Below the pieces are notes generated by a model. That model ran no database searches. It worked only from the letters and a program-made list of their open reading frames with translations, and was not told where the DNA came from. Shown in pieces: positions 4,368 to 32,019 of a stretch of 32,100 nt of DNA. The first letter of the stretch is position 1, and every line of letters starts with the position of its first letter. This DNA comes from a virus. A program made the position numbers and the translations under genes. The stretch covers positions 1 through 32,100 of the IMG/VR virus record IMGVR_UViG_3300021197_001863; one strand, 5' to 3'.

Positions 4368-6374
4368 ATGGCGAGAACTAACATAGACATAGGAACACTG
4401 GGCAATCCGGCCACGGGCGATACTTTACGTACGGCCATGATCAAGATCAACAACAATTTCACCGAAGTTTACTCGTTGGTCAGGGACGGATCTTCTGGAC
4501 TGATAGCCACCGACGTAACGAACGGTGACCTGAAATTACAGGCCAACGGAACAGGTAACATAGAGATAGACCAACTATCAATAAATGGCGACGCAATCAC
4601 ATCAATAGTGACTAACGGTTCTGTTGACATCACCGGTAACGGCACAGGTGGCGTGAACATAGAAGCATTGAGTTTCAATGGAACAAGTATTTCAAGCACA
4701 GACAGTTCAAGAATCAACTTGAACGAAAACGTGACCGTAGACGGTGACCTCAATGTCACAGGAAATATCACAGGTACTTTCTCGGTATCGACAGTTGGAG
4801 ACATCACAGCCGTTGGGTCAACTTTGACTGCGCCATCCAACGCGGATCTAACACTGACAACGTCAGGTACTGGTTCAGTGAGTGTTGATGGAATACAGAT
4901 CAAAGGCACGGAATTGAGTTCAACCGACTCTTCACAAATAACAATAAAAGAAAATTTACACGTGACTGGGAACATCACGGGCACGATTGACGCTGACAAC
5001 TCAACAGTTTCAAACCTGGAAGTGGACAACTTCAAGGCCGCTTCAATTGTCACAGAAGCGGAAGGTATTGGAAGCAACGACAATGACACAACTCTACCAA
5101 CGTCGGCGGCCGTAAAAGATTACGTGGACGCAAGGGATATAGGTGACCTATCCGTAACAGGTTCGACGATATCAGCACCGTCAAATGCGGATCTGACTTT
5201 GACCACCTCAGGTACGGGATCAGTCAGCATTGACGGAATACAGATTTCAGGAACAGAAATCAGTTCGAGTGACTCAACACAGATCACAATAAAAGAAAAT
5301 TTACACGTGACTGGGAACATCTCTGGAACGATAACAGGAACAGTCACAGGCACAATTGACGCCGACTCGTCAACAATTTCCAACTTGGAAGTGGACAACT
5401 TCAAGGCCGCAACCATAGTAACTGAAAGTGAAGGCATCGGATCCAACGACAACGACACGACCATACCAACAAGTGCCGCTGTCAAAGACTATGTGGACAA
5501 CAACGCAGGTGGCACAACAGGTGACCTTGCAATAACGGGATCAACCATATCAACACCTTCAAACGCAGACCTAACACTGAGCCCAGGTGGAACAGGTAGT
5601 GTACAGACACCGGGAGTCACGATAACAGACAACAAGATCACATCAAATAGATCAAATGACAACTTAGAGTTAAACGCATCAGGCACAGGAACGATAGTGC
5701 TAGAGAATTTAAAAGTTGGCACGGGTGCCACAGTGACGACGATACTTGACGAAGACAACATGTCCTCTGACAGTGCCACGGCATTGGCTACACAACAGAG
5801 CATAAAAGCATACGTGGATTCACAGGCCGGCACAGGTGGCATGACATTCTCAGGCAACACAATGTCTGGATCAAGTAACGCAGACATAGAGATCACACCG
5901 GGAGGCACCGGAGCAGTAGTTTTAGGTGATGCCATCAGGATCAGAGACAACCACCTAGAAGGCACAAGATCAAACGAAGACGTCATCATTGATCCCGCGG
6001 GAACAGGGCAAGTGGTTGCCAACGCCGCTTTCAAATTCAACGCAGGTTACGTTGAGAATATAAACACACTGACTTCAAGTTCGACCATAACAGTCAACTG
6101 TTCACTGGCCAGCATACACAAGGTCACACTGGCAACATCAACGGAATTCAACATAGCAAACCTACCAACCGGTGGAACGGTTACGTTAATCATCACACAG
6201 GATGGCACAGGTTCAAGGACGGCCACTTTCGGCACTGACGGTTCTTCGGCCGTGAAGTTCCCATCCAACAGTAGCACACTTTCGACCGGTGCCGCTGACA
6301 TAGACGTTGTCACAATCATCAACGACGGAACCAACTTCCTGGGCAACATTGCCAAGGACTACAGGTCATCATAG
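4368..6374 (+). CDS. Tail-fibre-like structural protein A (668 aa)
   Basis: First of the fibre paralogues. The N-terminus GNPATGDTLRTAMIKINNNF followed by TEVY matches the signature shared with the genes at 7263, 11902 and 13326. The body is a Ser/Thr/Gly/Asn-rich beta-repeat built on variants of SNADLTLTTSGTGSVS, as in fibrous beta-helix or triple-spiral shafts. Two consecutive units of about 120 residues (roughly 140-260 and 260-380) are near copies. The C-terminal about 105 residues (from INTLTSSSTITVNCS) resemble a beta-sandwich tip found in other phage fibres, with QDGTGSRTATFG as its landmark. The protein is probably a distal fibre or fibre-like virion component. Receptor and exact position on the virion are unknown. 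Confidence 0.8.
   Translation: MARTNIDIGTLGNPATGDTLRTAMIKINNNFTEVYSLVRDGSSGLIATDVTNGDLKLQANGTGNIEIDQLSINGDAITSIVTNGSVDITGNGTGGVNIEALSFNGTSISSTDSSRINLNENVTVDGDLNVTGNITGTFSVSTVGDITAVGSTLTAPSNADLTLTTSGTGSVSVDGIQIKGTELSSTDSSQITIKENLHVTGNITGTIDADNSTVSNLEVDNFKAASIVTEAEGIGSNDNDTTLPTSAAVKDYVDARDIGDLSVTGSTISAPSNADLTLTTSGTGSVSIDGIQISGTEISSSDSTQITIKENLHVTGNISGTITGTVTGTIDADSSTISNLEVDNFKAATIVTESEGIGSNDNDTTIPTSAAVKDYVDNNAGGTTGDLAITGSTISTPSNADLTLSPGGTGSVQTPGVTITDNKITSNRSNDNLELNASGTGTIVLENLKVGTGATVTTILDEDNMSSDSATALATQQSIKAYVDSQAGTGGMTFSGNTMSGSSNADIEITPGGTGAVVLGDAIRIRDNHLEGTRSNEDVIIDPAGTGQVVANAAFKFNAGYVENINTLTSSSTITVNCSLASIHKVTLATSTEFNIANLPTGGTVTLIITQDGTGSRTATFGTDGSSAVKFPSNSSTLSTGAADIDVVTIINDGTNFLGNIAKDYRSS
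4941..5321 (+). repeat. Tandem internal duplication in fibre gene A with an exact 36-base match
   Basis: Bases 4941-4976 and 5286-5321 are identical over 36 bases (starting acaataaaag and ending gggaacatc), 345 bases apart. A second exact 24-base match (5018-5041 and 5387-5410) lies in the same units, which differ in length because the second copy has an extra TGTVTG-type insert. The flanking codons have diverged, so this is a real unit duplication with locally preserved or recently homogenised identity. Confidence 0.85.
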
Positions 6375-7262: not shown

Positions 7263-10200
7263 ATGGCACAAGAACTAATAAACATAGGCGCACAGGCCAA
7301 TGATGGGACAGGTGATACTATCAGGAACGCCGGCCGTAAGATCAACGCTAACTTCACAGAATTTTTCGCGTTGTCTGTTGTTGCGTCTGATATAAGATTC
7401 GAGCAAAACAACATCGTATCAAAATCTTCTAACGCCGACATAGTGCTCAAGCCTTCAGGAACAGGAAACATAGTATTCCCCGCCCTCACTGTTGAAGACA
7501 ACAACATCAAAATGACCAGGTCAAATGATGAGTTGAAAATCACGGCCAATGGATCTGGTAAGGTTGTAATAGACGGTATTGGATTCGCAGGCACATCTAT
7601 TGTGGGCACAGACTCCACAACCATCAACATCAATGAAAACTTGATAGTTGACGGCACACTGAATGCAGGTGCTCCTACCCTATCGTCTGCGGTCACGATC
7701 AATTCCACACTGGACGTCACAGGTGCAACCACACTGTCTACATTGACTGTTTCGGGAGCCTCATCTTTCGTGGGTACTACGACCATAGATAATCTTACTT
7801 TTAACGACAACATAATAGGTACGAGTTCAAATGCGGATTTGATCCTATCACCAGGCGGCACAGGTGTGGTAAGCGTTTCCAACCTCACAATAGACTCAAG
7901 CATAAATTTAACCGATAACGTGATCAAGGTCACACGTTCCAACGATGACTTTGTTCTTTCAGCAAATGGCACAGGTTCAGTCCAAATGTCAAAAGTTAAC
8001 ATCAGCGAAGGCACTGTGAACAACACAGTGTTAGGGGCAACCACACCAGGGGCAGGAACTTTCACTACATTAGCATTCTCGGGCACATCAATCGTGGCGG
8101 ACGGTGTCACTATAACTGATAACACGGTGACTGCAAATAGGTCAAATGATAATCTGGAACTTGAGGCCAGTGGATCAGGATACGTTAGGATCAATGATTT
8201 ATTTAACTTCCCCAACTCAGACGGTAACACAGGACAACTACTCCGGACAGACGGAAGCGGTCAGTTGTCGTGGGTCACTGCTCCACTATTGCTTGGACAG
8301 TCGGATATACAAGACGCAAGAAACACCATTGGGTTTTCATCGTCAACACAGTTAAATGCTAACGAGGCCATAGGTGCACACGAAAACATCGTTGCAGGCA
8401 GTGACAGTGTGGTGGACGCATTCGCCCAGTCCCAGTATGACAGTGCTTGGTACTTGATGTTGCAGAGGTACGATTCCGCTGACAGTTCGATACAGTACGC
8501 AGGCTTCAAAACGTCAGTGGCACAAGGAACAGCAAATGGAAGCACATTCGAGGCCGACAACTTAACGTCACAGATCATAAAGACAAATGGTGATGATGGA
8601 ATCATGCAAGTATCTTCAGACGTAAGAGGTGGAGATTCAACGGTCAGGCTCCTAGGACAGGCCGGCCTACTGGCAGACAGTACCACTTCGGCGTTATTCA
8701 ACTCAGTGAATTTTTTCAGAATCGGTCTAGGAGATAATGACTCGTCAGGATTCACAGACGGGAATGTGGCGACAAAAGTCACAGCAGACCTTGACAGTGC
8801 GACTGCAACACTTGACACCTTTGCCCACGCAAGTTTCAGGGGAGCGAAATATTATGTTTCGGTAAACAACACAACCACCAATGAAGTCATGAACGCTGAA
8901 GTCATCGTGGTTCATGACGGATCAGATGCTACCATACAGACATACAACCAGTTCTCAACCAACACGGGCAACACTGCACTGGCAACCTTTACCGCAGACA
9001 TAAGTGGCAGTGACGTAAGGTTAAGAGGTGCCAACGGGACCGCTGGAACATGTAGAGTCACAATGTACAGGATACTTTTGGCCGACAATGAGTCAGGTTC
9101 GAGTGGCACGTACCAGAGTGTCATTGCGGCACAGACGGTCAGCAACACCGCACTCACTACAATTGACACAGACACGTTCAGGGGTACAGCACATCCAGAC
9201 ATGAGTTCTCAGAAAATTGCTAATCAATTTGCAAAAACAAGTTTTGACAGTGTGTTCTATCACATGGTGCAAAAAGATGTAACGAACAGCGAATTTGTCA
9301 TGAACAAGTTGAGTTTGAATCATGGCATCAGTGCCGATGGTAGCACAGAAGTGGCAGGTGTCTCAGACAGTCATATCCTAAAATCAGGAGAGATGAACGA
9401 TATCACGGCCTTTGATGCAGGCATCAGCGGATCAAATGTAAATTTACTAGCAACAGGCCAGAGCGATGGCTCAACCACAGTCCAGAACTCATTGTCCTAC
9501 TATGGCATCGGACTTGGTCCAAACACAACAACTACCTCATCAGGAAACATAGGCACACACGCAGGTGTTACCTCCGGAGGCAACGTTGAAACAGTGATAG
9601 ATCATGTCATAGCAGAAGGTACAACACAGGGAAGTTTTGCCGCTGAAAGAACAGCCGCAGAATTTACTGCGAGTCAATTCAACGGTGCATTGTATCATGT
9701 TGTTACCAAGGATACGACCAACGGCAGTTTTGAAACACAGAAAATTTCAGTATTGCACAATTTCAATGATGGTTTCCTTACGTCATCAGCAGTGACTAGA
9801 ACAGATAGCGGTGACAATCATCCAACATTCAATGCCGACATGGTCACAGCAGACGACAGTGCATCCAAGATAAGATTAAGAATGACAGACGGTGATGGTT
9901 CATCTGTCACACCAGCAAACACAATGGGCTACTACAGGATAGGAATCGGTGACGATGACTCCACAGGATATGTGGGCGAACTAGGGCTAGTTCATGACAT
10001 CATGCATGTGTCAATCATCGACAGCACCGTGGTAACCCTTGATGCGTTTACTAAGGCTCCACACGCCGCGGCAAAATATTTTATAAATGTGAGAAATCAA
10101 TCAACTGGTGAAACCAGCAACATAGAATGTTTGATCACACACGACAACACCAATGCATACATAACATCATACAACGAGCACTTCTCAGGCAACAACAGCC

Positions 10201-11900
10201 TCATTACATTGACCGCAGACATAAGTGGTACAAGTGTCAGGTTGCGAGGTTCTGCAACGTCAGGCGCCAGCACAAAGGTAATTGTCAACAGGATAGTGGC
10301 ATTCGCTGACACAGAATCAGACGAGGCAACCACAGACAGCACAAGGAAAGTGATAGGTAACGTCACGACATCTAGTACAGCAACAACTTTTGACACATTC
10401 CAATCCAGCGACACGGATGCTGTACATTATGTGGTGTGCGGACAGAACGGTTCAGATGAGAAATTTATATGTGAGGCCACTGTTGTCACAGATGGCACGG
10501 GAGTTTTCATATCACAAGGTCCTAACGTAAGCACAAAAGGCACGGACATGTTGGAACTTACCGCTACTATTTCAGCAGGCACGGTCAGTGTCAAAGCAAG
10601 TTCCACTTCAGGCGCTTCAACGGCAGTGAGTGCTTATGCAGTAAGGTTGAAAGCACCTGTAGACAATTCGATTGTGCTGGACAGTTGGGCCATCGCTGAT
10701 GACAGAGGTGCCAAGTACTACATTTCCGCGGATGACACTATCAACGGACATGTCACAAACATGGAAGCCATGGTGGTACATGACGGCACCAATGCATTTA
10801 TCACAACGTACGACCAGCATAACAGCCATAACAGTTTGGTCTCATTCACCGCAGATATCAGTGATGGACAGTTGAGATTGCTGGCGACACCAACCACAGC
10901 AGATGTCAAGTTGAAATTCTACAGGATAAGATTAGCCGACAACGAATCAAACAGCACAGGAACTGACTTCAACACAGTGGGTGCAACCACAATATCAAGT
11001 TCGGCGACTGCAATAGACACTTTCGTAGATACACAATTCAAAGGTGCTCATTATGTGATTATCGCTCGTAACGCCAGTGAAGGGACTTCCGAAATAACGG
11101 AAGCCACAGTCTTGACCAATGGCACCACTGCTTTTGTGGCACAGGGTGCTAACGTTTCAAGCAAGGCATCATCGATGTTGACTCTTACCGCGGCACATGA
11201 TGGATCAAGCACTGTGACTCTGAGTGCGGCATCCAGTGCAGGTGGGAGCACCACTGTCAATGCACACAGGATTCACCTCAATGTGGAAGATGGAACCTCA
11301 TATGATGTTCTTGACTCGTTTGGGCACGGAACATATAAATTAGCGAACTATATTGTGGTAGGAAAAAATGCCGCAAACGAATCGCAGATAGCAGAACTAA
11401 TGGTTGCCACTAATGGCACGGCACCATTTATTTTACAGACAGGTGCAAATATCAGCACACACTCAGAGTCCGATGCATTAATGAATTTCACAGTCGCACA
11501 CAACGGCAGTAACGTAGAATTACGTGCAACAAACAACCAAGAATTAACCGACACCACAGTCAACATGTACAGATTGCATCTTAACAGGCTTGAGGGGTCG
11601 CCTAGTTCTGTAGCCACTCTCGACACATTTGACAAGACTGAGTTCAGGAGTGCAAAGTACACTGTTTCGATCAGTGACCCGGCCAGTGGTTCACTTGGAT
11701 TATACGAAACTCTAGACATAAATGTGGTACACGACGGTACTACTGTGTATCTGACCACGTTTGGCAGGATCACTAACCACACTACAGATCTAGTGGAATT
11801 CACTGCTGACATCAGTGGTGACGACGTGAGGTTGCGAGGCACGATAAGTAATACAAACACACACACGGTCACAGTGGTTAGAAGGGTAATGAAAGTTTAA
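7263..11900 (+). CDS. Giant fibre-like protein B with about ten C-terminal repeat domains (1545 aa)
   Basis: Residues 1-40 carry the shared signature (ANDGTGDTIRNAGRKINANF). Residues about 40-380 are beta-repeats with variants of SNADLILSPGGTGVVSVSNL, closely paralleling the protein at 11902. From about residue 384 to the end come ten divergent copies of a 95-145 residue domain, each running LDTF...F.GAKYYV, then E..VVHDGT.A.I, then FTADISG..VRLRG, then YRI.LAD.ES. Approximate copy starts are residues 384, 515, 652, 798, 925, 1042, 1138, 1250, 1349 and 1452. Copies 1, 3 and 4 are the most divergent. It is probably a long adhesin or fibre shaft; the repeated domain may bind glycans. No enzyme motif is visible. 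Confidence 0.8.
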   Translation: MAQELINIGAQANDGTGDTIRNAGRKINANFTEFFALSVVASDIRFEQNNIVSKSSNADIVLKPSGTGNIVFPALTVEDNNIKMTRSNDELKITANGSGKVVIDGIGFAGTSIVGTDSTTININENLIVDGTLNAGAPTLSSAVTINSTLDVTGATTLSTLTVSGASSFVGTTTIDNLTFNDNIIGTSSNADLILSPGGTGVVSVSNLTIDSSINLTDNVIKVTRSNDDFVLSANGTGSVQMSKVNISEGTVNNTVLGATTPGAGTFTTLAFSGTSIVADGVTITDNTVTANRSNDNLELEASGSGYVRINDLFNFPNSDGNTGQLLRTDGSGQLSWVTAPLLLGQSDIQDARNTIGFSSSTQLNANEAIGAHENIVAGSDSVVDAFAQSQYDSAWYLMLQRYDSADSSIQYAGFKTSVAQGTANGSTFEADNLTSQIIKTNGDDGIMQVSSDVRGGDSTVRLLGQAGLLADSTTSALFNSVNFFRIGLGDNDSSGFTDGNVATKVTADLDSATATLDTFAHASFRGAKYYVSVNNTTTNEVMNAEVIVVHDGSDATIQTYNQFSTNTGNTALATFTADISGSDVRLRGANGTAGTCRVTMYRILLADNESGSSGTYQSVIAAQTVSNTALTTIDTDTFRGTAHPDMSSQKIANQFAKTSFDSVFYHMVQKDVTNSEFVMNKLSLNHGISADGSTEVAGVSDSHILKSGEMNDITAFDAGISGSNVNLLATGQSDGSTTVQNSLSYYGIGLGPNTTTTSSGNIGTHAGVTSGGNVETVIDHVIAEGTTQGSFAAERTAAEFTASQFNGALYHVVTKDTTNGSFETQKISVLHNFNDGFLTSSAVTRTDSGDNHPTFNADMVTADDSASKIRLRMTDGDGSSVTPANTMGYYRIGIGDDDSTGYVGELGLVHDIMHVSIIDSTVVTLDAFTKAPHAAAKYFINVRNQSTGETSNIECLITHDNTNAYITSYNEHFSGNNSLITLTADISGTSVRLRGSATSGASTKVIVNRIVAFADTESDEATTDSTRKVIGNVTTSSTATTFDTFQSSDTDAVHYVVCGQNGSDEKFICEATVVTDGTGVFISQGPNVSTKGTDMLELTATISAGTVSVKASSTSGASTAVSAYAVRLKAPVDNSIVLDSWAIADDRGAKYYISADDTINGHVTNMEAMVVHDGTNAFITTYDQHNSHNSLVSFTADISDGQLRLLATPTTADVKLKFYRIRLADNESNSTGTDFNTVGATTISSSATAIDTFVDTQFKGAHYVIIARNASEGTSEITEATVLTNGTTAFVAQGANVSSKASSMLTLTAAHDGSSTVTLSAASSAGGSTTVNAHRIHLNVEDGTSYDVLDSFGHGTYKLANYIVVGKNAANESQIAELMVATNGTAPFILQTGANISTHSESDALMNFTVAHNGSNVELRATNNQELTDTTVNMYRLHLNRLEGSPSSVATLDTFDKTEFRSAKYTVSISDPASGSLGLYETLDINVVHDGTTVYLTTFGRITNHTTDLVEFTADISGDDVRLRGTISNTNTHTVTVVRRVMKV
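8411..11897 (+). repeat. Ten-copy divergent protein-domain repeat
   Basis: About ten tandem copies of a beta-rich domain, 290-440 bases each, occupy the 3' three quarters of fibre gene B. Conservation is at protein level (GAKYY, VVHDGT, TADISG, VRLRG) with clear nucleotide divergence, so these are old duplications. A single extra copy forms the C-terminus of the next gene (about 12985-13263). Confidence 0.85.
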
Positions 11901-14975: not shown

Positions 14976-14980
14976 TTGCC

Positions 14981-14988
14981 AATAAATA
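14981..14988 (+). promoter_or_regulatory. T4-type late promoter motif (AATAAATA)
   Basis: AATAAATA lies 20 bases before ATG 15009. The predicted leader contains TAAGGAG (14995-15001), a good Shine-Dalgarno, so this message should have a normal leader. Confidence 0.65.
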
Positions 14989-15008
14989 CCCGTGTAAGGA
15001 GTAAAGTA

Positions 15009-17522
15009 ATGGCAACACCAGTGTGGACTACCACAGCAGGTAAAATTGCAACTATAGATGAACAAGCGTCATTTTCGCTACAACTTGAAGCGAATACCAG
15101 CGATTCAACGGCCATAACTTACTCCGTGATAGCAGGAAGCCTACCCGCAGGTATGCAGGTTACTACAGATGGCTTACTGACAGGTACTCCGGCTGAGGTT
15201 GCCAAAAGAACTCTTTACACCTTCGTCGTGCGAGCCACGGCCGGTACCGCTATCACAGACAGGACTTTTTCATTGGATGTGCAGGGTGCGGACACACCTA
15301 CCTTTACAACAGCATCTGGACAACTACAACTAGACGACTCGACCAGTGTTGGATTATACTGGGTCATAGATGGTTCCAGTGTGTCACTGCAGATGCAGGC
15401 CACGGACACAGACACCAGGGCAGGTCAGAGTTTGGTTTACGAGATCGTACAAGGATCACTACCACCCGGAGTTACCATGAGCAAGTCAGGATTGATTTCA
15501 GGAACCGTTCAACTCACGGATGATCAAAGATATGGAGAGCGTGGTGGATATGATGATGGTAATCCAGAGGATCAATGGGATGGTACATTTGATAGAACAG
15601 TCAGATCTAAAAGTATAAGCAAGAATTTTGATTTCATAATAAGGGTATCAGACGGAACCAGTTTCGTAGAACAGAACAACAACATATTTGTTTACTCCGC
15701 GGACTTCTGGAGAGTATCAAACACAGAGATCACTATTGACGCAACAGAAATACAAAACACGCCACTGACCATGGACCTCAGTGCCAACAGGAGACCTGTT
15801 TTCAGGACAGGTTCAGATTTGGGCACGTTCAGACACGACAACGCACTTGTGGTGAAAATCGATGTGGAGGACTTCGATCCGTTGCAAGGCGATCTGGAGT
15901 ACTCGATACAATCAGGATCTTTGCCCTCAGGTGTCGCCATCGACGCTGACACGGGAGAGCTTTACGGACAACTGGCAAGACAATCAGCGGTTGAGACAAA
16001 CTATGCCTTCACCGTGAGGGCCAACAGAGTTGTAAGCACAGACGTAAACGTGTTCACGGACCAGTCCTTCACAATGAAAGTTATTGGCGAGATAGACATA
16101 GGCATAGAATTCACAACACCGACTGTGGTGGGAACTCTTACAGCAGACATACCAAGTCTGCTATCAATAGAAGCAGTTACAGAAGAGGCCAATCGTGTGT
16201 TGAGTTATTCTGTCACGGCAGGATCTTTGCCAGCAGGAATTACATTATCAGAACAAGGAAACCTGATAGGCACAATAGATCCGAGTGAATTCACAGATTC
16301 CACGAGAGCATTTACGTTTACGGTCACAGTGAGTGACCAATACCAATCAGCGGCCACGGCAAAAGAATTCACATTGAACATCGATATCCCATACACTCAA
16401 ACCGAGTATGGCAACATGTCGGGCCATTCAACATCTTTCATTGATCAAAATATATTTTATAACATAGCACAAGATCCAAACATCAATTCTGTAGATAATA
16501 TATTCAGACCCGAAGATGACAATTTCGGGATGAAGGTCAAACCTGAAATGCTTATGATGTCGGGACTTGAAGCACAGACGTTGACTGCTTTTCAACAGCA
16601 GATGGAACAGAACCATGCTCCCAAGACCCTGTACTTTGGAGACATAAAGACAGCAGTGGCCAAAGAAGGCACTGATACAAAATACGAAGTTGTCTATATA
16701 GAAATCAAAGATCATCTTGTCAACAAGGATGGCCAATCTGTGTCCAGTTCGATTAATTTACGTGATGCTGTGTCAAAACCTTTACTAGGACCAAGGGCGT
16801 CTAGCATGAACGCCACAGCAGATTACGTAGATTATGAAGTGACCACGGACGGAGGACTATCGTTCAGCACAGCAGGATCTAAAGTAAGATATGCAAACCA
16901 ATTGAGTGCTGACCTAGGATTCATAGAAACAGTGTATCCAAATGCAGTAGCCAACATGAGGTCAAGAATGAAAAGCCTAGGACACAAGGAATGGGATTAT
17001 CTACCATTGTGGATGAAGACAACACAAGCAGGCGATCTTGCACCGTTAGGATATGTGACGGCAGTACCCATCTGTTACTGCAAACCAGGAACATCAGCAT
17101 TGGTCAAAAAAAGAATTGAGGACAAAGCACTAAACTTCAAGAATATTGCATTCACCATAGACAGATATGTGGTCAACAAAAGCAAAGTTGCCACGGAAAC
17201 GTTCACAGCGGATGGTACGACAACCAGTTTCGTTGTTGATGAACTGGTGCACGAGGAAGATGTATTGGTCAAAGAAGGAACAAGCAGGGTGTTCGTGGGC
17301 AAAGGTGTAACAGCCGACAACAACATAAAGCCAACATATCTCACAGCAGATGGCACTATTAGATCCGCAGATCATGAGTTAGGCATTACACTTTCTCACA
17401 ACACAACCACAATGAAAACAACGATCACTTTTACCAAAGAAATACCACAAGCAGGCACAATAATCAAGGTGGAGAGATTGAACGATAAATATCTTAAATT
17501 TAGAGATAAAGGAATACAATAA
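15009..17522 (+). CDS. Virion protein with four putative-Ig (He_PIG-like) repeats (837 aa)
   Basis: The start is ATG 15009, eight bases after a strong Shine-Dalgarno; a TTG 33 bases upstream is rejected. Four Ig/cadherin-like repeats are marked by GSLPAGMQVTTDGLLTGTP (about residue 40), GSLPPGVTMSKSGLISGT (about 146), GSLPSGVAIDADTGELYG (about 300) and GSLPAGITLSEQGNLIGT (about 401). The C-terminal part (about 480-837) is not repetitive and includes MKSLGHKEWDYLPLWMKT and a final beta-rich region. Large proteins of this kind occur in T4-like marine phages as virion structural proteins. It is probably a baseplate- or fibre-associated scaffold. The gene overlaps the next by one base. Confidence 0.8.
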   Translation: MATPVWTTTAGKIATIDEQASFSLQLEANTSDSTAITYSVIAGSLPAGMQVTTDGLLTGTPAEVAKRTLYTFVVRATAGTAITDRTFSLDVQGADTPTFTTASGQLQLDDSTSVGLYWVIDGSSVSLQMQATDTDTRAGQSLVYEIVQGSLPPGVTMSKSGLISGTVQLTDDQRYGERGGYDDGNPEDQWDGTFDRTVRSKSISKNFDFIIRVSDGTSFVEQNNNIFVYSADFWRVSNTEITIDATEIQNTPLTMDLSANRRPVFRTGSDLGTFRHDNALVVKIDVEDFDPLQGDLEYSIQSGSLPSGVAIDADTGELYGQLARQSAVETNYAFTVRANRVVSTDVNVFTDQSFTMKVIGEIDIGIEFTTPTVVGTLTADIPSLLSIEAVTEEANRVLSYSVTAGSLPAGITLSEQGNLIGTIDPSEFTDSTRAFTFTVTVSDQYQSAATAKEFTLNIDIPYTQTEYGNMSGHSTSFIDQNIFYNIAQDPNINSVDNIFRPEDDNFGMKVKPEMLMMSGLEAQTLTAFQQQMEQNHAPKTLYFGDIKTAVAKEGTDTKYEVVYIEIKDHLVNKDGQSVSSSINLRDAVSKPLLGPRASSMNATADYVDYEVTTDGGLSFSTAGSKVRYANQLSADLGFIETVYPNAVANMRSRMKSLGHKEWDYLPLWMKTTQAGDLAPLGYVTAVPICYCKPGTSALVKKRIEDKALNFKNIAFTIDRYVVNKSKVATETFTADGTTTSFVVDELVHEEDVLVKEGTSRVFVGKGVTADNNIKPTYLTADGTIRSADHELGITLSHNTTTMKTTITFTKEIPQAGTIIKVERLNDKYLKFRDKGIQ
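17484..17491 (+). promoter_or_regulatory. T4-type late promoter motif (GATAAATA)
   Basis: GATAAATA lies inside the end of the He_PIG gene, 30 bases before ATG 17522. The predicted leader carries AAAGGA (17508-17513) eight bases before the start. It could drive the 17522 gene separately from the upstream message. Confidence 0.5.
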
Positions 17523-25694: not shown

Positions 25695-25713
25695 TATAAT
25701 ACACGCACTTATT

Positions 25714-25721
25714 GATAAATA
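25714..25721 (+). promoter_or_regulatory. T4-type late promoter motif (GATAAATA)
   Basis: GATAAATA lies five bases before ATG 25727 of the peptidase gene. No Shine-Dalgarno is present, the same geometry as at 24477. Confidence 0.65.
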
Positions 25722-25726
25722 ATTGT

Positions 25727-26188
25727 ATGAGATTAAGTGCAAACTTCACACTAGCGGAATTCACGAAAAGTCAGACAGCGACACGAAAAGGTCTTGATAA
25801 CACACCAGGCGAAGAACACCTAGCAAACGCAAAAGAATTATTTGCCAACGTGGTGCAAAAGGTCAGAGAGAACTTTGGCGTGACAGTGATCAACTCAGGA
25901 TACAGAGGGCCTGCACTGAACGAAGCAGTAGGTGGTTCAAGTAAATCACAACACTGCAAAGGCGAAGCAGTTGATATAGAATGTCCAGGCACAGGCAACT
26001 ATGATGTGGCCAAATGGATCTCAGAAAACTGTGACTTCGACCAATTGATATTAGAATTCTACACACCAGGCATACCTGACTCGGGTTGGGTACACGTTTC
26101 TTACAAGTCAGAAGGCAACCGAAAAAGCATACTGACTGCCATGAAGGAAAATGGTAAAACTGTTTACAAACCTGGTTTGATCCAATAG
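25727..26188 (+). CDS. M15 (VanY/peptidase M15A-like) peptidase, probable endolysin
   Basis: This 153-residue single-domain zinc peptidase matches peptidase M15A. SGYRGPALNEAVGGSSKSQH ends at H76, D83 is in GEAVDIE and H123 in GWVHVSY; these three are the zinc ligands. M15 phage enzymes cut peptide stems or cross-links of peptidoglycan. It has no signal peptide or holin fusion, so release would need a holin that I do not see in this window. The start is ATG 25727; an in-frame TTG five codons upstream is ignored. Under a late promoter it fits an endolysin; a virion-maturation hydrolase is the alternative. Confidence 0.8.
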   Translation: MRLSANFTLAEFTKSQTATRKGLDNTPGEEHLANAKELFANVVQKVRENFGVTVINSGYRGPALNEAVGGSSKSQHCKGEAVDIECPGTGNYDVAKWISENCDFDQLILEFYTPGIPDSGWVHVSYKSEGNRKSILTAMKENGKTVYKPGLIQ

Positions 26189-26214
26189 ACAAACTGACTT
26201 ACAGAATGTATACT
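26186..26214 (+). promoter_or_regulatory. Sigma70-type promoter upstream of the cargo cassette
   Basis: TAGACA (26186-26191), a 17-base spacer and TATACT (26209-26214) with TG just before it. The TAG of the -35 is the stop codon of the M15 gene, the same arrangement as before uvdE. The -10 ends ten bases before ATG 26225. Confidence 0.6.
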
Positions 26215-26224
26215 AACTATCAGT

Positions 26225-26746
26225 ATGCATAAAAAAATTAATTTAGATGTAGATTATACACATTTCCTGTCACATGAAATACCTAAAGGGACCACATGTA
26301 TAGCACACCAACTGGTTGAACTCAAAGACATACATGAAAAATTTCCAGGCGGCTTCCCTCAAACATATCAATTAGCCAACACTACCATACATCAGAAGTT
26401 CTGGGATAAGGATGAATGCGATTACGATGAGCTAGGAGAAAAACTAGGTATAGAAGCCGTGACAGTCAGCACCATCATGCAACCTCCAGGTAATGTGATA
26501 CCACTTCACAGAGATACATTCTATAAGATTAAGGTTGCGTATCCTGAAGACAAAAGAACAATAGTGAGATGTAACATATATCTCGAGGATTGGAAAGCAG
26601 GACACTACGTACAGTATCAAGACAACGTAGATATACATTGGACGCAGGGCAGTGGACATATGTGGGACAGTGAAGTATTGCACATAGGTGCCAACGCCGG
26701 CATGGAAAACAAGTACACACTGCAAATCAGTGGTTTCCTAAAATAA
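26225..26746 (+). CDS. 2OG-Fe(II) oxygenase-like protein 1
   Basis: This 173-residue protein has the facial-triad pattern of Fe(II)/2-oxoglutarate oxygenases: H95-R-D97 (VIPLHRDTFY) and H153 (EVLHIGANAG), in a double-stranded beta-helix context (TVSTIMQPPG, RTIVRCNIYLED, YTLQISGF). It resembles aspartyl/asparaginyl hydroxylase-type proteins frequent in marine phages. It is the first gene of the cargo cassette, after a sigma70-type promoter, and ends directly before the next ATG (TAA then ATG). Substrate unknown; it could act on a protein, nucleotide or small molecule. Confidence 0.75.
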   Translation: MHKKINLDVDYTHFLSHEIPKGTTCIAHQLVELKDIHEKFPGGFPQTYQLANTTIHQKFWDKDECDYDELGEKLGIEAVTVSTIMQPPGNVIPLHRDTFYKIKVAYPEDKRTIVRCNIYLEDWKAGHYVQYQDNVDIHWTQGSGHMWDSEVLHIGANAGMENKYTLQISGFLK

Positions 26747-27676
26747 ATGACTACAAGGTATACAGACCTTCCAGACAACAAAGATAAACCGTTCGGAGGA
26801 GCCTACAGTGTGCATGATATAGAAACTTGCCAGACAAGGGATGATGCGGTCAAAGAATACATATCCAATCAATCACTGTTGGACAACGAAGAAATCAAGA
26901 GCAAATATGTGCAGACATATAAAAAATGGATGTTCGCCACACACCCAAAAATCAAAGGGTGGGAGGACTACAACGAACTGTGTTTCACACAAGGCACAAC
27001 AGAATCTTTCGCTCAATTTTACTTGCGTTTCAAGGGCTCTAAAAGGCTAAGATTGGCCAAGGGAGAGTATTTCTACAATCAGATGATGAAAGGACTATGG
27101 TTCAAGGAAAAATTCGCATGGCTTGATGAGGACGAAATTAAACCCAATGACGTTGTGTTAATAAGCACACCGTTTTCCGACACAGGTGCAGTGCCAGACT
27201 ATCTAGAAAAGTTATTAACAGAATGTGATAAAAACAATGTACCGGTCATGCTTGATCTTGCGTATGTAAGTCTATCCGTCGATCAGCAATTGGATCTCTC
27301 ACATCAATGTATCGAATATGTGGTGTCGTCGCTGTCAAAAGTTTTTCCTGTAGAGTTACACAGGATCGGTATACGTATGCAGAGAAAGAAATTTGAAGAT
27401 CAACTGTACGTGATCAATGAAAAAAATTACAATTACATCAACGTTATGAGTGCATACGTAGGAACCAAACTTATGGAAAAATATCCTGCAGATTACATAT
27501 ACAAAAAATATAGACAGGTGCAGTTAGACATGTGTAACAAGTTAAATGTAGAAGCGTCGCCGTGTGTGTACTTTGGCATAGACAAACAGGGACAGTTTCC
27601 GGACTACAATCGTGGAACAGAATCAAATAGACTGTGTTTTTCTAGAGTATGGGACGGGAGAATGAAGGATGAGTGA
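26747..27676 (+). CDS. Divergent PLP aminotransferase-like protein 2 (fold type I)
   Basis: This 309-residue paralogue of the protein at 20368 carries LCFTQGTTESFAQFYLR, an NPTG-equivalent STPFSDTG (140-147), VMLDLAYVS with D170 for the pyridine-N Asp, and SSLSKVFPVELHRIGIR with K198 as likely PLP lysine and R206. The C-terminus includes EKYPADYIYKKYRQ, shared with its paralogue. It is shorter than typical class I enzymes (about 400 residues). In the cassette it could supply an amine for the amidinotransferase two genes downstream. The small size and altered NPTG mean activity is not assured. It overlaps the next gene by eight bases. Confidence 0.65.
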   Translation: MTTRYTDLPDNKDKPFGGAYSVHDIETCQTRDDAVKEYISNQSLLDNEEIKSKYVQTYKKWMFATHPKIKGWEDYNELCFTQGTTESFAQFYLRFKGSKRLRLAKGEYFYNQMMKGLWFKEKFAWLDEDEIKPNDVVLISTPFSDTGAVPDYLEKLLTECDKNNVPVMLDLAYVSLSVDQQLDLSHQCIEYVVSSLSKVFPVELHRIGIRMQRKKFEDQLYVINEKNYNYINVMSAYVGTKLMEKYPADYIYKKYRQVQLDMCNKLNVEASPCVYFGIDKQGQFPDYNRGTESNRLCFSRVWDGRMKDE

Positions 27677-28781
27677 TCCCTACTTTTATGATCAATGGCA
27701 GAACAATACATTAACTTTCAACATAGAAAAATACAATTTTCCACACTTGATCTTAAATGTGATCAAAGAAAAATTTCCTAATGTCTTATCATTAGAAACA
27801 ATTCACCAAGCGGTAGAACCATCACACATATCTGAACTATGTTTGTATGTGCAAAAAGCATTTGGCAGAAAAGAATACATGGTATTGTTCGATCAGTTTG
27901 CAGAAGAATACATAGCACCAAAATTAAAAGGCAGGCATTACTTGATTAAAAGGCAACCAACACTAAATTGTGTTATCCCTAATCAGGTTAAACATGCAAG
28001 AAGGCTTCCGTTCCATCAAGGAATATTTTATAACAACGGTAAAGGAATGGCAACAATGTGGATGCCATTGACCAAAGCATTTGGCACTAATACTATGTAC
28101 ATTGCCAACTTAGAAGACAGTAGAAATTTAACAAAAGAAGTAATAGACCAAAAATTAAGCCTAGACAAGTTTGAAGAAAAGTGCCTACAGATATGTAGCC
28201 CTGTTGAAAAATCACCAGGCGAGGTGCACCTTTTCACACAAGAGCATATACACGGCAATCTGAACAATGAGACTGGAGTCACACGATGTGCAATAGATTG
28301 GCATGTGCTTCCAGAAGGTGAGGAATACAATGGACGAGAGCCCGGAGGCTTTTTCCGATTGCCTGGAGATCATGAGCAATCTGACCATACAGATTATACA
28401 GGAAAAACTTTTATCTCGTATGTTGGAAATAATAGTAGGTATGATAAAAAAATTCCTATACATTTCCAACGTAAAGTAATCGACGAATACTGCAAAAGTA
28501 AAGGCATTGTTAACAGCGGTGTCCAATTCGAAAATGAATTTTTAGTCTGGCTACCTATACTAGAACACTATATCCAACAAAGAATACACGGAATTGTTAT
28601 GTTAAGCATACACAGTCTACCAAACGATAAAGCAAGGACCAACGAGCTATTGCACATGGCAATAGAAAACAATGTACAGTTACATTTTGCCAATGAGTTC
28701 TGTACACTCAAAGCACAGGAGGACCTAGACCGCATACAAACTTACTTGTCCTTTTCTCCTACTAAAGAAGGAACACAATGA
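27669..28781 (+). CDS. 2OG oxygenase (HxG variant) fused to sporadic carbohydrate cluster (LIC12192-like) domain
   Basis: This 370-residue two-domain protein joins families I recall as TIGR04324 and TIGR04323. Residues about 1-235 resemble the sporadic-carbohydrate-cluster 2OG-Fe(II) oxygenase: RLPFHQGIFYNN, then MWMPLTKAFGTNTMYI, then IHGNLNNETGVTRCAIDW (H195, R206). The iron site reads H116-Q-G118 where HxD is expected, as in Fe/2OG halogenases. Residues about 246-364 resemble the LIC12192-type domain (FISYVGNNSRYDKKIPIHFQ, then IHGIVMLSIHSLPNDKARTN, then LHFANE). In bacteria these two families are usually separate neighbouring genes in surface-polysaccharide clusters. The gene is AT-rich by eye. 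It overlaps the amidinotransferase by four bases. Substrate unknown. Confidence 0.65.
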   Translation: MSDPYFYDQWQNNTLTFNIEKYNFPHLILNVIKEKFPNVLSLETIHQAVEPSHISELCLYVQKAFGRKEYMVLFDQFAEEYIAPKLKGRHYLIKRQPTLNCVIPNQVKHARRLPFHQGIFYNNGKGMATMWMPLTKAFGTNTMYIANLEDSRNLTKEVIDQKLSLDKFEEKCLQICSPVEKSPGEVHLFTQEHIHGNLNNETGVTRCAIDWHVLPEGEEYNGREPGGFFRLPGDHEQSDHTDYTGKTFISYVGNNSRYDKKIPIHFQRKVIDEYCKSKGIVNSGVQFENEFLVWLPILEHYIQQRIHGIVMLSIHSLPNDKARTNELLHMAIENNVQLHFANEFCTLKAQEDLDRIQTYLSFSPTKEGTQ

Positions 28782-29839
28782 AAAGTATAGTATCAAGTCA
28801 TAATGACTGGGATCCTCTTGAAGAATGTTTTGTAGGTACGGCTACCCACGCTAGGTTTCCAACACTGGATCGCAGTACACATTCGTTTTGCTTCACTACA
28901 GAAAAGTATGACGACATATCTGGTATAGAAGGACCAGTTGATGAAAAAATAATCAACGAGTCCAACGAGGATCTCGACAAACTTGCTGAAACATTAACAG
29001 GACTGGGCGTTAAGGTTAGGCGTCCTACTGCTCAAGATCATTCAAAAATCTTTAGTACACCGGAGTGGACAACAACAGGATACCAGACATATTCCTGTAG
29101 AGATCTACTATTGCCCCTGGACAATCTCATAATAGACTGTGCATCACCATTGAGAAGTAGATATTTTGAAACACGGGCATACCGGGAATTTTTATACGAA
29201 GTCATGCACAATGGCACAGAGTGGGTATCGGCACCCAAACCTATACTACCTGATGAGATATATCAAGTAGAAAATCTAGGAGACCCGTCGACTCGTAATC
29301 TTGAAATAGTGTTTGACTCTCCAAACGTGGTGAGGCTAGGCAATGACTTGTTGTTCCAGGTCAGTAACTCCGGCACAGAACTAGGTGCACAATGGTTGAA
29401 AACAATACTAGAACCAAGAGGTTACAGAATACACATGGCAGATAAGTTTTATGCATTCGCTCATTTCGATAGCACAGTTCTACCGTTACGTCCTGGACTG
29501 GTACTGTTCAATGGTGACCGATTGAATCCAGACAGGTATCCAAAGATATTTGATAAATGGGATAAGATATTTTTCCCAGGAGACAAAATTGTTGACGTAG
29601 GTTGTGCATTACCTAACGGAGTCACAACCACTTCACCTTACATAGGACTGAATTTTTTCAGCGTCAATGAGAACTTGGTTGTCTGTGATAAGAATCAAAC
29701 ACACCTTCGTAGAGAACTAGATAAGCACGGTATAGAAAGTATAGGTCTCGAGATGAGGCATGCTAGAGCAATGGCCGGAGGCTTCCATTGTGTGACACTA
29801 GACACCAAACGTAAAGGATCTCGTCAGGATTATTTCTAA
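28778..29839 (+). CDS. Amidinotransferase (AGAT/StrB-like)
   Basis: This 353-residue protein belongs to the guanidino-group-modifying (AGAT/arginine deiminase) superfamily. It transfers or hydrolyses the amidino group of arginine through a Cys. The triad is intact: D180 in VFDSPNVVRLGND, H229 in FAHFDSTVLPLRPG, and C338 in GGFHCVTLDTKRKG. The 49-residue spacing between Asp and His equals that of human AGAT as I recall it. LLFQVSNSGTELGAQWL and GLNFFSVNENLVV also match AGAT landmarks. The Shine-Dalgarno AAGAAGGA precedes the start. It ends the cassette, three bases from the convergent gene. The amine acceptor is unknown: an amino sugar, amino acid or nucleobase are all possible. Confidence 0.85.
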   Translation: MKSIVSSHNDWDPLEECFVGTATHARFPTLDRSTHSFCFTTEKYDDISGIEGPVDEKIINESNEDLDKLAETLTGLGVKVRRPTAQDHSKIFSTPEWTTTGYQTYSCRDLLLPLDNLIIDCASPLRSRYFETRAYREFLYEVMHNGTEWVSAPKPILPDEIYQVENLGDPSTRNLEIVFDSPNVVRLGNDLLFQVSNSGTELGAQWLKTILEPRGYRIHMADKFYAFAHFDSTVLPLRPGLVLFNGDRLNPDRYPKIFDKWDKIFFPGDKIVDVGCALPNGVTTTSPYIGLNFFSVNENLVVCDKNQTHLRRELDKHGIESIGLEMRHARAMAGGFHCVTLDTKRKGSRQDYF

Positions 29840-29842
29840 TCC

Positions 29843-30955
29843 TTATTTTAGATTTTGGAATTCCGTAGGCAACTCGTCTATCTGCCTGACTATTTCACTA
29901 GAAATATCATTATGTAGATTTTTAGCCAGTTGGAAATTATGAAAAGTATCCTCTCCCTGTAGGTCCTGCCAGGATTGTGCCCAATCCTTGTTCTTTGTCA
30001 TTTGGGAGTAGAATAGTATCTCTCGACAGTATCTCTTTACAACATCCTGCAGTGACTCATTAGGTCTCCTGTTCATATTATTTTTGAAACGGAATCCCCA
30101 TTCTTTCATTTGTTGTGCTTCGGCATCTGCCCATATGGGCAACACAGGAGCAGTCGAAGTAAAACATTGGAGATGCTTCTCCGCGATGCCCCAGTGTACA
30201 TAATGATCATAAAAAACGTCTCGATCCATTGCCACAAAAAAATGACATTTGTTAAGACATTTGTTTAGGATGGATAGATTACGTTTATGATCAAACCTTA
30301 CATACTCTCCGCTGAGGTGACCTTGGTTCAAATCTTTTATGACCCTGTTTATACCAAGTGCATCATCTGGGTATGTTCTATCATTGGCTTTGATTTCGGG
30401 CATACCATACAAAGCGTTATCCAGAGCTCCAAGCTCTTTCAACATCATCAGTAAATGTGGCCCTGGGCCAATAGGATTGCTGGCCATGATCATGAATGAG
30501 TGTTCCATGTCATCGACCTTTCTGTGAAAGACCGGCGCTACTCCGCTCTCACTGAACATCTTGGAATATTGGTAGGCCATTGAATGTGTGTGTATGACTC
30601 TGACATTGTCGGGTACCGGCACCACTGATCTTATTTTTTCAAATGTCACTATCAAACGTGGTTTGCCTGTACGAACACAGGCTTGGTATAATTGTTCTAT
30701 ATGGCTGTCTAGAGATCCAGGCCCTAAATAGATGACAGGATTGCTCTCTACTGTATCATTTAATACATCTTTGTTCCAAATATACCAAAGCAAACTACTT
30801 GTGGGGGTTAAAAGGGGTCTGGCACCAAATCTAGCGTTGATAAACGGTACCGGATTGGCCCACTTAGGATTAATGTTATCCCATTCTGTTTCCCAAGGTC
30901 TCACTTCGAAGGGTTTTTCAAGCCTTTCTACTGCAATATTATTAGGAATGTTCAT
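29843..30955 (-). CDS. Glycosyltransferase-like protein of unknown function (370 aa)
   Basis: This minus-strand gene is convergent with the amidinotransferase. The start is ATG 30955 (a TTG one codon before is ignored). The N-terminal half has a Rossmann-like stretch (VIYLGPGSLDSHIEQLY, then KPRLIVTFEKIRSVV). The C-terminal segment DVFYDHYVHWGIAEKHLQCF leading to PVLPIWADAEAQQM resembles the D...TEK...F..P motif and following GF of GT10/fucosyltransferase-like phage proteins. That resemblance is weak. It could be the transferase that uses a product of the cassette on the opposite strand; no evidence beyond position. It is read divergently from the spanin gene (33 bases apart). Confidence 0.55.
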   Translation of the reverse strand: MNIPNNIAVERLEKPFEVRPWETEWDNINPKWANPVPFINARFGARPLLTPTSSLLWYIWNKDVLNDTVESNPVIYLGPGSLDSHIEQLYQACVRTGKPRLIVTFEKIRSVVPVPDNVRVIHTHSMAYQYSKMFSESGVAPVFHRKVDDMEHSFMIMASNPIGPGPHLLMMLKELGALDNALYGMPEIKANDRTYPDDALGINRVIKDLNQGHLSGEYVRFDHKRNLSILNKCLNKCHFFVAMDRDVFYDHYVHWGIAEKHLQCFTSTAPVLPIWADAEAQQMKEWGFRFKNNMNRRPNESLQDVVKRYCREILFYSQMTKNKDWAQSWQDLQGEDTFHNFQLAKNLHNDISSEIVRQIDELPTEFQNLK

Positions 30956-30972
30956 CAAGCGTAATTATCATC

Positions 30973-30988: not shown

Positions 30989-31462
30989 ATGTTTTCAACA
31001 ATAAAAATGGCGATCGCAATTATGTTAATCACCGGCATAGCGGGTGCGGGTGTGTACGTGATGAAACTACGGGCGGACAACGCCACACTGAAAGCCAACC
31101 AAATAGAATTAGAGAAAGGCATTGAAGCACAGACAAAGTTAATAGAACAACAGAAAGTGGACTTCGAGGCCATAATGGAGAGCAACAAGAAACTTAACAC
31201 TCTAGTGATGACTTTCAAGAAAGACCTAGACGAGTTGGACAAGCGTTTCAACAAGAAGAAAAGAGACGTTGGTAAATTGGCCATAGAAAGATCCAAATCC
31301 GTTGAACGTGTGATAAACAAAGGTTCGGCTGAAGCAACTAGATGTGTGGAACTGGCCAGTGGCGCAGAAAGAACAGAAGCAGAAATCAAAGCAACAAAGA
31401 AATCGGAGATAAACACGATGTGCCCAAGCCTGGCAAATCCTAATTTTGTACCTTATGAATAA
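30989..31462 (+). CDS. Inner spanin-like (Rz-like) protein
   Basis: This 157-residue protein has one N-terminal transmembrane segment (about residues 5-25, MAIAIMLITGIAGAGVYVM) and then a long Lys/Glu-rich coiled coil (about 28-110, e.g. LEKGIEAQTKLIEQQKVDFE). Topology and length match Rz i-spanins, which with an outer-membrane lipoprotein breach the outer membrane in the last lysis step. A lipoprotein gene overlaps its end by eight bases, as in Rz/Rz1. The cysteines near the C-terminus (ATRCVELAS, INTMCPS) could form disulfides. Late promoter upstream. An unrelated membrane coiled-coil protein is the alternative. Confidence 0.65.
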   Translation: MFSTIKMAIAIMLITGIAGAGVYVMKLRADNATLKANQIELEKGIEAQTKLIEQQKVDFEAIMESNKKLNTLVMTFKKDLDELDKRFNKKKRDVGKLAIERSKSVERVINKGSAEATRCVELASGAERTEAEIKATKKSEINTMCPSLANPNFVPYE

Positions 31463-31817
31463 AATTTTAGCAGTAGCATTGATATTATTACTCACAGGAT
31501 GTAGCATAGGCGGAGAGAAGAGGATCAAACTGTTTGCGGTTGAAGAGCCAAGACAGAAGTTGAACCTACCAGATCCAATGCCATTGACACTGGAAGACAT
31601 CCGTTGGATAATAATCACAAGTGAGAACGCACAAGAGGTTTTCAAGAAGTTGGAAGAGCAGGGAATAGACCCTGTGTTGTTTGGATTGACTGACAAGGAC
31701 TACGAGATGTTGGCCAAGAACTTCGCACAGATAAGACAGAAATTACAGGAAACAAATAGTCTCCTGGAAGAGTACAAGAAATATTACGAGGGAGAAGAGA
31801 ATGCAGACAGTAATTAA
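31455..31817 (+). CDS. Lipoprotein, probable outer spanin (Rz1-like)
   Basis: The start is ATG 31455, inside the end of the inner-spanin-like gene. A lipoprotein signal is clear: MNKILAVALILLLTGCS with lipobox L13-T14-G15-C16. Residues 16-60 are extended, and residues about 85-115 form a charged helix (AQIRQKLQETNSLLEEYKKY). Lipobox, size and partial overlap with a membrane coiled-coil gene fit an o-spanin, although at 120 residues it is longer than classical Rz1 and less proline-rich. Secretion of an ordinary lipoprotein is the alternative. It overlaps the ACP gene by 17 bases. Confidence 0.65.
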   Translation: MNKILAVALILLLTGCSIGGEKRIKLFAVEEPRQKLNLPDPMPLTLEDIRWIIITSENAQEVFKKLEEQGIDPVLFGLTDKDYEMLAKNFAQIRQKLQETNSLLEEYKKYYEGEENADSN

Positions 31818-32019
31818 AGTAATAGCAGAACATCTAGATGTTGCAGAGAGCAAGGTTACACCAGAAGCACACCTAGTTGATGATCTAGGTGCAGATCCAT
31901 TTGACACAATAGAACTAGTGATACAAGTGGAAAAAGCGACAGGTGTAAAAATATCAGAGGACGACGGTGACAAAGTCCAAACAGTACAGGATCTAATCAA
32001 CCTAGTGGAGAAAAAATAA
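31801..32019 (+). CDS. Acyl carrier protein homologue with Pro at the Ser attachment site
   Basis: This 72-residue protein is clearly ACP-like: VIAEHLDVAESKVTPEAHLV, then DDLGADPFDTIELVIQVEKA, acidic and four-helical in pattern. The conserved DSL motif, whose serine carries phosphopantetheine, reads D32-P33-F34. The serine codon is CCA, one base from TCA. The rest of the fold is well kept and the frame is open, so it is not decaying. It cannot be acylated in the normal way. It could act as an ACP mimic for host partners, a decoy, or a structural subunit. Its start lies in the preceding gene, with GGGAG just upstream. Confidence 0.85.
   Translation: MQTVIKVIAEHLDVAESKVTPEAHLVDDLGADPFDTIELVIQVEKATGVKISEDDGDKVQTVQDLINLVEKK

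Follow-up and report, generated by a model that had tools for sequence, protein, structure and literature searches.

Islands of lipopolysaccharide (LPS) and host-recognition genes have been described in T4-like marine phages. P-SSM2 possesses 24 LPS genes (PMC2984593), while pelagimyophages carry cassettes of GT8, rfaE and radical S-adenosylmethionine (SAM) genes that have been read as O-chain modification against co-infection (PMC7029224). Here we describe a cassette of four genes, termed A to D, within a 32.1-kb IMG/VR virus record (IMGVR_UViG_3300021197_001863), the whole of which was analysed and is referred to as the window. The window resembles a fragment of a T4-like phage, encoding a T4-type clamp loader, with 54% identity to the clamp loaders of PA5oct, Paride and similar Pseudomonas phages of ~287 kb, together with baseplate/tail-fibre proteins. 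On balance, we lean towards the cassette being a modular tailoring unit that builds and guanidinylates an amine, likeliest on a sugar or sugar-like block destined for a host-surface or virion (tail fibre) glycan. It is probably a real but unstudied phage means of decorating a sugar. The four genes and the gene following them (E) are as follows, with lengths in amino acids (aa).

26225..26746, + strand: A, predicted small Fe(II)/2-oxoglutarate (2OG) oxygenase, 173 aa (open reading frame (ORF), invariant residues, AlphaFold2 (AF2) model)
26747..27676, + strand: B, predicted fold-type I pyridoxal phosphate (PLP) enzyme, class I/II aminotransferase-like, 309 aa (PF00155, HisC profile)
27669..28781, + strand: C, PhyH-like 2OG-oxygenase domain (HxG) fused to a LIC12192/TIGR04323-like domain, 370 aa
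28778..29839, + strand: D, predicted StrB/AGAT-type amidinotransferase, 353 aa (phmmer to 1bwd, conserved residues)
29843..30958, - strand: E, distant member of the f7 family (hhalign to the f7 profile)

Genes A to D all lie on one strand (26225-29839) with spacings of 0, -8 and -4 nucleotides (nt). The original prediction for this DNA, made from the sequence alone, had proposed four abutting or overlapping genes at these positions, and the ORFs were confirmed. Judged by ratios of non-synonymous to synonymous substitution (dN/dS) of 0.02-0.11 between the window and close relatives, all four genes are under strong purifying selection.

Alignment of D with StrB (1bwd) extended over the full length of the protein (phmmer E 5.9e-88, residues 2-352). 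Residues D109, R128, D180, H229, D231 and C338 were conserved in 116 phage homologues, position 180 being occupied by either Asp or Glu. The roles of these residues (catalytic Cys, His and Asp; arginine-binding Asp/Arg) are presumed by analogy with the family. D is predicted to be a StrB/AGAT-type amidinotransferase with its catalytic residues intact, in keeping with the AGAT-type assignment and intact triad (C338, H229, D180) originally proposed. The accompanying description of the chemistry as streptomycin-like was also apt for D, StrB being its closest solved relative. Separately, Glu occupies position 180 in 47 of the 116 homologues, and this might shift D from transfer towards arginine hydrolysis. 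A role in creatine synthesis, as for AGAT, was considered and rejected, no methyltransferase partner having been noticed near D; the reported viral enrichment of GAMT (PMC11360552) concerns a gene other than D. In contigs L073, L075 and L076 (12671-13657), a second, divergent amidinotransferase paralogue was observed within a few kb of the principal copy.

B matched Aminotran_1_2 (PF00155) with 28.2 bits against a Pfam cut-off of 19.7, and its nearest relative by profile was the histidinol-phosphate aminotransferase HisC (1h1c, 1.6e-5). The PLP lysine K198, the pyridine aspartate D170 and the C-terminal, carboxylate-binding R295 were present in 110/110 homologues, among which Y173 and R206 were invariant or nearly so. 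These scores and cofactor residues uphold the aminotransferase-like assignment, and B is classed on sequence as a fold-type I class I/II (HisC-like) PLP enzyme. Its weak family matches comprise both transaminase and decarboxylase types.

The N-terminal 240 residues of C matched TIGR04324 (6.6e-17, residues 27-210; 61.9 bits, below the curated cut-off of 150) and its C-terminal part matched TIGR04323 (1.3e-14, residues 249-361; 54.2 bits, just under the curated cut-off of 55). The anticipated fusion of a 2OG oxygenase with a LIC12192-like domain was therefore recovered, though with scores below both cut-offs. In cyanobacteria, homologues of TIGR04324 and TIGR04323 are encoded by adjacent separate genes, from which we infer that phage C joins two functionally paired proteins. 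The clusters surrounding the cyanobacterial pair contain NDP-sugar-dehydratase-like genes (NDP, nucleoside diphosphate) and other apparent surface-sugar genes. C is also found without A, B and D in cyanophage-like contigs, where it closely precedes a tail-fibre gene of ~1950 aa. The C family had no match in sequenced phage records (two queries) or in plasmids (C as query); thus, no cultured phage possessing C was found.

The iron-motif residues of C are H116-Q-G118...H195, with R206. HxG was present in 89/89 phage fusions with a readable motif, the distal His and the 2OG-binding Arg also being conserved, whereas the cellular single-domain TIGR04324 homologues compared retain the iron-binding HxD. 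This clean split makes C a candidate for a new reaction. The AF2 model of C (pLDDT 84) is of a PhyH-type oxygenase that superposes on PtlH with a Z score of 13.8 (root-mean-square deviation 3.6 over 210 residues). A Foldseek search with the model returned the CurA halogenase as the top match and SyrB2 among the matches. HxG/A is the signature of Fe/2OG halogenases. However, AspH hydroxylates with two histidines (PMC10947486), and a prolyl 4-hydroxylase deprived of its Asp did not become a halogenase (PMC2767507), so the motif is a lead towards halogenation rather than proof of it. The HxG of C is as in 2OG halogenases yet compatible with non-halogenating two-His enzymes. A more specific proposal, in which C halogenates and D guanidinylates an amino-sugar displayed on host or virion in a widespread virus-encoded pathway, is doubtful; if true, such a pathway would constitute a glycan chemistry undescribed in viruses.

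The LIC12192/TIGR04323 domain (28389-28778; cyanobacterial copies in L225-L228) was separately considered as a serine-recombinase-like fold, possibly degenerate. One cyanobacterial copy matched Pox_F16 (E 7e-4), the alignment with resolvases was weak although in register (hhalign probability 2.4%), and no useful PDB match was obtained for the domain. Given the weakness of these signals, the relationship is not claimed.

A had no Pfam or NCBIfam match. Nevertheless, H95-x-D97...H153 and R115 were invariant in 168/168 homologues, and an AF2 model built from a profile of 20 homologues adopted a jelly-roll (pLDDT 91) matching prolyl-4-hydroxylases (Z 12.4 to 3gze) and other 2OG oxygenases, with AspH also listed. 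Invariant motif and predicted fold agree with the 2OG oxygenase first proposed: A is predicted to be an Fe/2OG oxygenase of double-stranded beta-helix fold with an HxD...H motif, and by that HxD it is of hydroxylase type. The suggestion that the cassette would oxidise or halogenate a carbon can thus be sharpened, oxidation being assigned to A and the halogenase-shared motif residing in C, where an AspH-like use is also compatible. An alternative that we consider unlikely is that the cassette modifies protein residues, such as those of a tail fibre, with A and C hydroxylating and D guanidinylating lysine-type amines. It would accord with the prolyl-hydroxylase-like and AspH-like fold of A, with the placement of C ahead of tail-fibre genes in one group of phages and with the radical SAM/SPASM enzymes of relatives. 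Against it, B belongs to the small-molecule type of PLP enzyme, small amines are the known substrates of StrB-type enzymes, and the TIGR04324/04323 homologues are located in carbohydrate clusters.

The association of the four genes was assessed in two IMG/VR samplings, by D and by B, with a third by A. Loci were counted only if 3 kb was available on either side, a partner being scored when within 4 kb; some contigs belong to both the D and the B sampling, and related contigs cannot be treated as independent. B was found near D in 51/52 D-sampled loci and D near B in all 23 B-sampled loci. A was present in 49/52 and 23/23 of these loci, respectively, and C in 6/52 and 18/23. The predicted co-occurrence of the genes elsewhere is thus borne out for B and D, nearly always extends to A and often to C, and the gene set recurs in many different aquatic phages. 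Together with the low dN/dS values, this places the arrangement well beyond chance. Conversely, among A-sampled loci B was present in only 6/56 and D in 12/56, A-family genes being widespread without B or D and often having f7, radical SAM or LegB-like genes nearby. A was accordingly rejected as a specific marker of the cassette; it belongs to phage sugar-type clusters in general, the specific core being B-D.

Gene orders vary (ABD, CABD, ABCD, divergent a-c/B-C-D and others), as do the flanks: M15/spanin genes in the group containing the window, a helicase region, radical SAM and tail-fibre regions, and PhoH/Thy1/exonuclease genes in the CABD group. Linkage kept through varied orders and varied flanks is what a shuffled functional unit looks like. 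At the window's own site, close relatives carry either A by itself or A plus B in reverse orientation, indicating that this is a cargo site. Such variability could suggest that the genes are selected in a non-catalytic or unrelated role and merely hitch-hike together at a variable cargo site. This is highly improbable in view of the conserved catalytic residues, the low dN/dS values and the survival of linkage across rearranged gene orders in different contexts. The original prediction had allowed that the genes might not co-occur elsewhere or might lack usable cofactor sites; on the sequence evidence, the genes are linked and the cofactor residues invariant.

In relatives, the neighbours of the cassette include radical SAM proteins, further 2OG oxygenases, a carbamoyltransferase and a flavin halogenase. 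Some carry a GT8 glycosyltransferase and a cytidylyltransferase/mannose-isomerase protein near the cassette, and some loci an NDP-sugar 4,6-dehydratase closest to LegB with a short LegC-like aminotransferase. The cassette, or C, lies near tail-fibre genes in some relatives. The flavin enzyme, which is tryptophan-halogenase-like (family f68), was observed near the cassette in L026, L031, L033, L034 and L035. Among cells, the closest counterpart of the cassette was a Bdellovibrionota contig (L122:521-4890) that carries homologues of A, D, B and f7 and has a uvrC-like ORF at its end. A Synechococcus lacustris contig, among the closest cellular homologues of D, possesses B, D, two copies of A and a LegB-like gene, while in gammaproteobacterial contig L129 the D homologue lies amid genes that, by eye only, resemble those of surface-sugar synthesis.

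These surroundings bear on two further alternatives. Production of a free guanidino metabolite during infection (an arginine-derived signal, osmolyte, toxin-like or nitrogen-handling compound) would suit the small-molecule pathways of AGAT/StrB relatives and the completeness of the window's set without sugar-nucleotide genes. We nonetheless regard it as rather unlikely, since in relatives the set lies within sugar-type clusters and close to tail-fibre genes, and no conserved exporter or carrier was seen to accompany the cassette. Hypermodification of phage DNA, whereby an amino-alkyl base is capped with guanidine, has well-established precedents in phages, amine-bearing thymines being known, and Thy1 genes lie near some copies of the cassette. 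It is improbable here: genes for a base hydroxymethylase, a base kinase or a DNA glycosyltransferase were not seen beside the cassette, the window being a small part of the genome, and the window's cassette resides in a lysis/structural neighbourhood.

The sugar reading itself follows from the closeness of D to StrB, the carbohydrate origin of the C domains and the neighbours in relatives. Against it, the window has no NDP-sugar enzyme or proven glycosyltransferase beside the cassette; the closest folds of A act on proteins as well as small molecules; and B is HisC-like, not of the DegT type of classical sugar aminotransferases, so that sugar transamination by B is not certain.

Directly after D, on the opposite strand, E aligned with the profile of family f7 (hhalign probability 94.6%, E 7e-8). 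Members of f7 (370-400 aa; e.g. L054:1944-3098, L272:1374-2492) form a common phage family that accompanies most such clusters, being found within 4 kb in 41/52 D loci and 18/23 B loci. No informative Pfam, NCBIfam or PHROG match was obtained for f7 or E, nor did two f7 queries match any of 50,697 phage records. A GT-B-like C-terminal motif is suspected in E; a glycosyltransferase role for f7/E found no useful library match and remains a suspicion.

We infer the reaction order, substrate class, guanidino product, target and benefit as follows. B would produce an amine, using glutamate and a carbonyl compound or else decarboxylating its substrate, and D would transfer the amidino group of arginine onto it. 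A may hydroxylate the scaffold, with C performing a second C-H functionalisation at its Asp-less iron site, possibly a chlorination. The unit would be supplied or attached by neighbouring proteins, namely f7/E together with the NDP-sugar dehydratases, glycosyltransferases and radical SAM enzymes of relatives. Altered receptor chemistry is the likely benefit, leading to superinfection exclusion, escape from decoys or changed adsorption of the virion.

In the window, the cassette is flanked by two virion-protein genes and an M15 peptidase gene on one side and a spanin pair on the other, the following features lying outside it.

25712..26188, + strand: left neighbour, M15 peptidase, probable endolysin (PF08291 1e-19)
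30989..31817, + strand: right neighbours, Rz/Rz1-like spanin genes (phrog_739, phrog_812)

The lone promoter-like match near A (26186-26214, sigma-70-like) stops 10 nt short of the ATG, and relatives do not conserve its -10 box; no T4 late-promoter octamer was present near the cassette. Early expression, claimed in the original prediction, was therefore set aside as unsupported. The nearest recognised tail-fibre-like gene in the window ends at 14786. Very long ORFs (4368-6374, 7263-11900 and 14976-17522) with no or weak PHROG matches were observed around the tail-fibre region, and an acyl carrier protein gene (31801-32019, + strand) lies directly past the spanin genes.

Comparison with known systems places the cassette as follows. 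D shares with StrB, the inosamine-phosphate amidinotransferase of streptomycin, and with the AGAT family its whole length, the Cys-His-Asp residues and the arginine-binding positions, but is partnered by a class I/II PLP enzyme and 2OG oxygenases and has Glu180 in 47/116 homologues. C contains homologues of both 'sporadic carbohydrate cluster' proteins, TIGR04324 and TIGR04323, ordered as in the cyanobacterial gene pair; it differs in being fused, in the change from HxD to HxG in every readable phage fusion and in falling below both cut-offs. Like the Fe/2OG halogenases SyrB2 and CurA Hal, it has an HxG/A...H iron motif on a PhyH-type fold, whereas its identity to them is only 10-15%.

Among named phages, the clusters of Campylobacter phage CP220 and Synechococcus phage S-SCSM2R each place a D homologue (27% and 35%) in the company of radical SAM and glycosyltransferase genes: in CP220, D adjoins nucleotide-sugar transferase and radical SAM genes; in S-SCSM2R, D and an A-like gene lie inside a run of glycosyltransferases. 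Unlike the window, neither had a B or C match in the stretches scanned, and only S-SCSM2R had an A-like gene. With the LPS/host-recognition islands of P-SSM2 and pelagimyophages (PMC2984593, PMC7029224), the cassette shares its status as cargo in T4-like phages, its proximity to tail fibres in several groups and the GT8, RfaE-like and radical SAM proteins of relatives. It differs in that a recurrent unit of amidinotransferase, class I/II PLP enzyme and HxG 2OG enzyme was not found described there, the words 'amidinotransferase' and 'aminotransferase' being absent from the main text of PMC7029224. Nor was a phage unit of amidinotransferase, PLP enzyme and 2OG enzymes found described in the open-licence literature, in agreement with the original statement that no phage system of such composition was known. 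A recurrent phage cassette that forms an amine, oxidises C-H bonds and guanidinylates would bring to virus-host surface interactions a chemistry not yet on record, and the four genes offer a compact, testable set (guanidinylation, +42 Da) with which to address the role of the sugar genes of marine T4-like phages. Phage glycan islands are already known; the combination of amidinotransferase, PLP enzyme and 2OG enzymes is what appears to be new.

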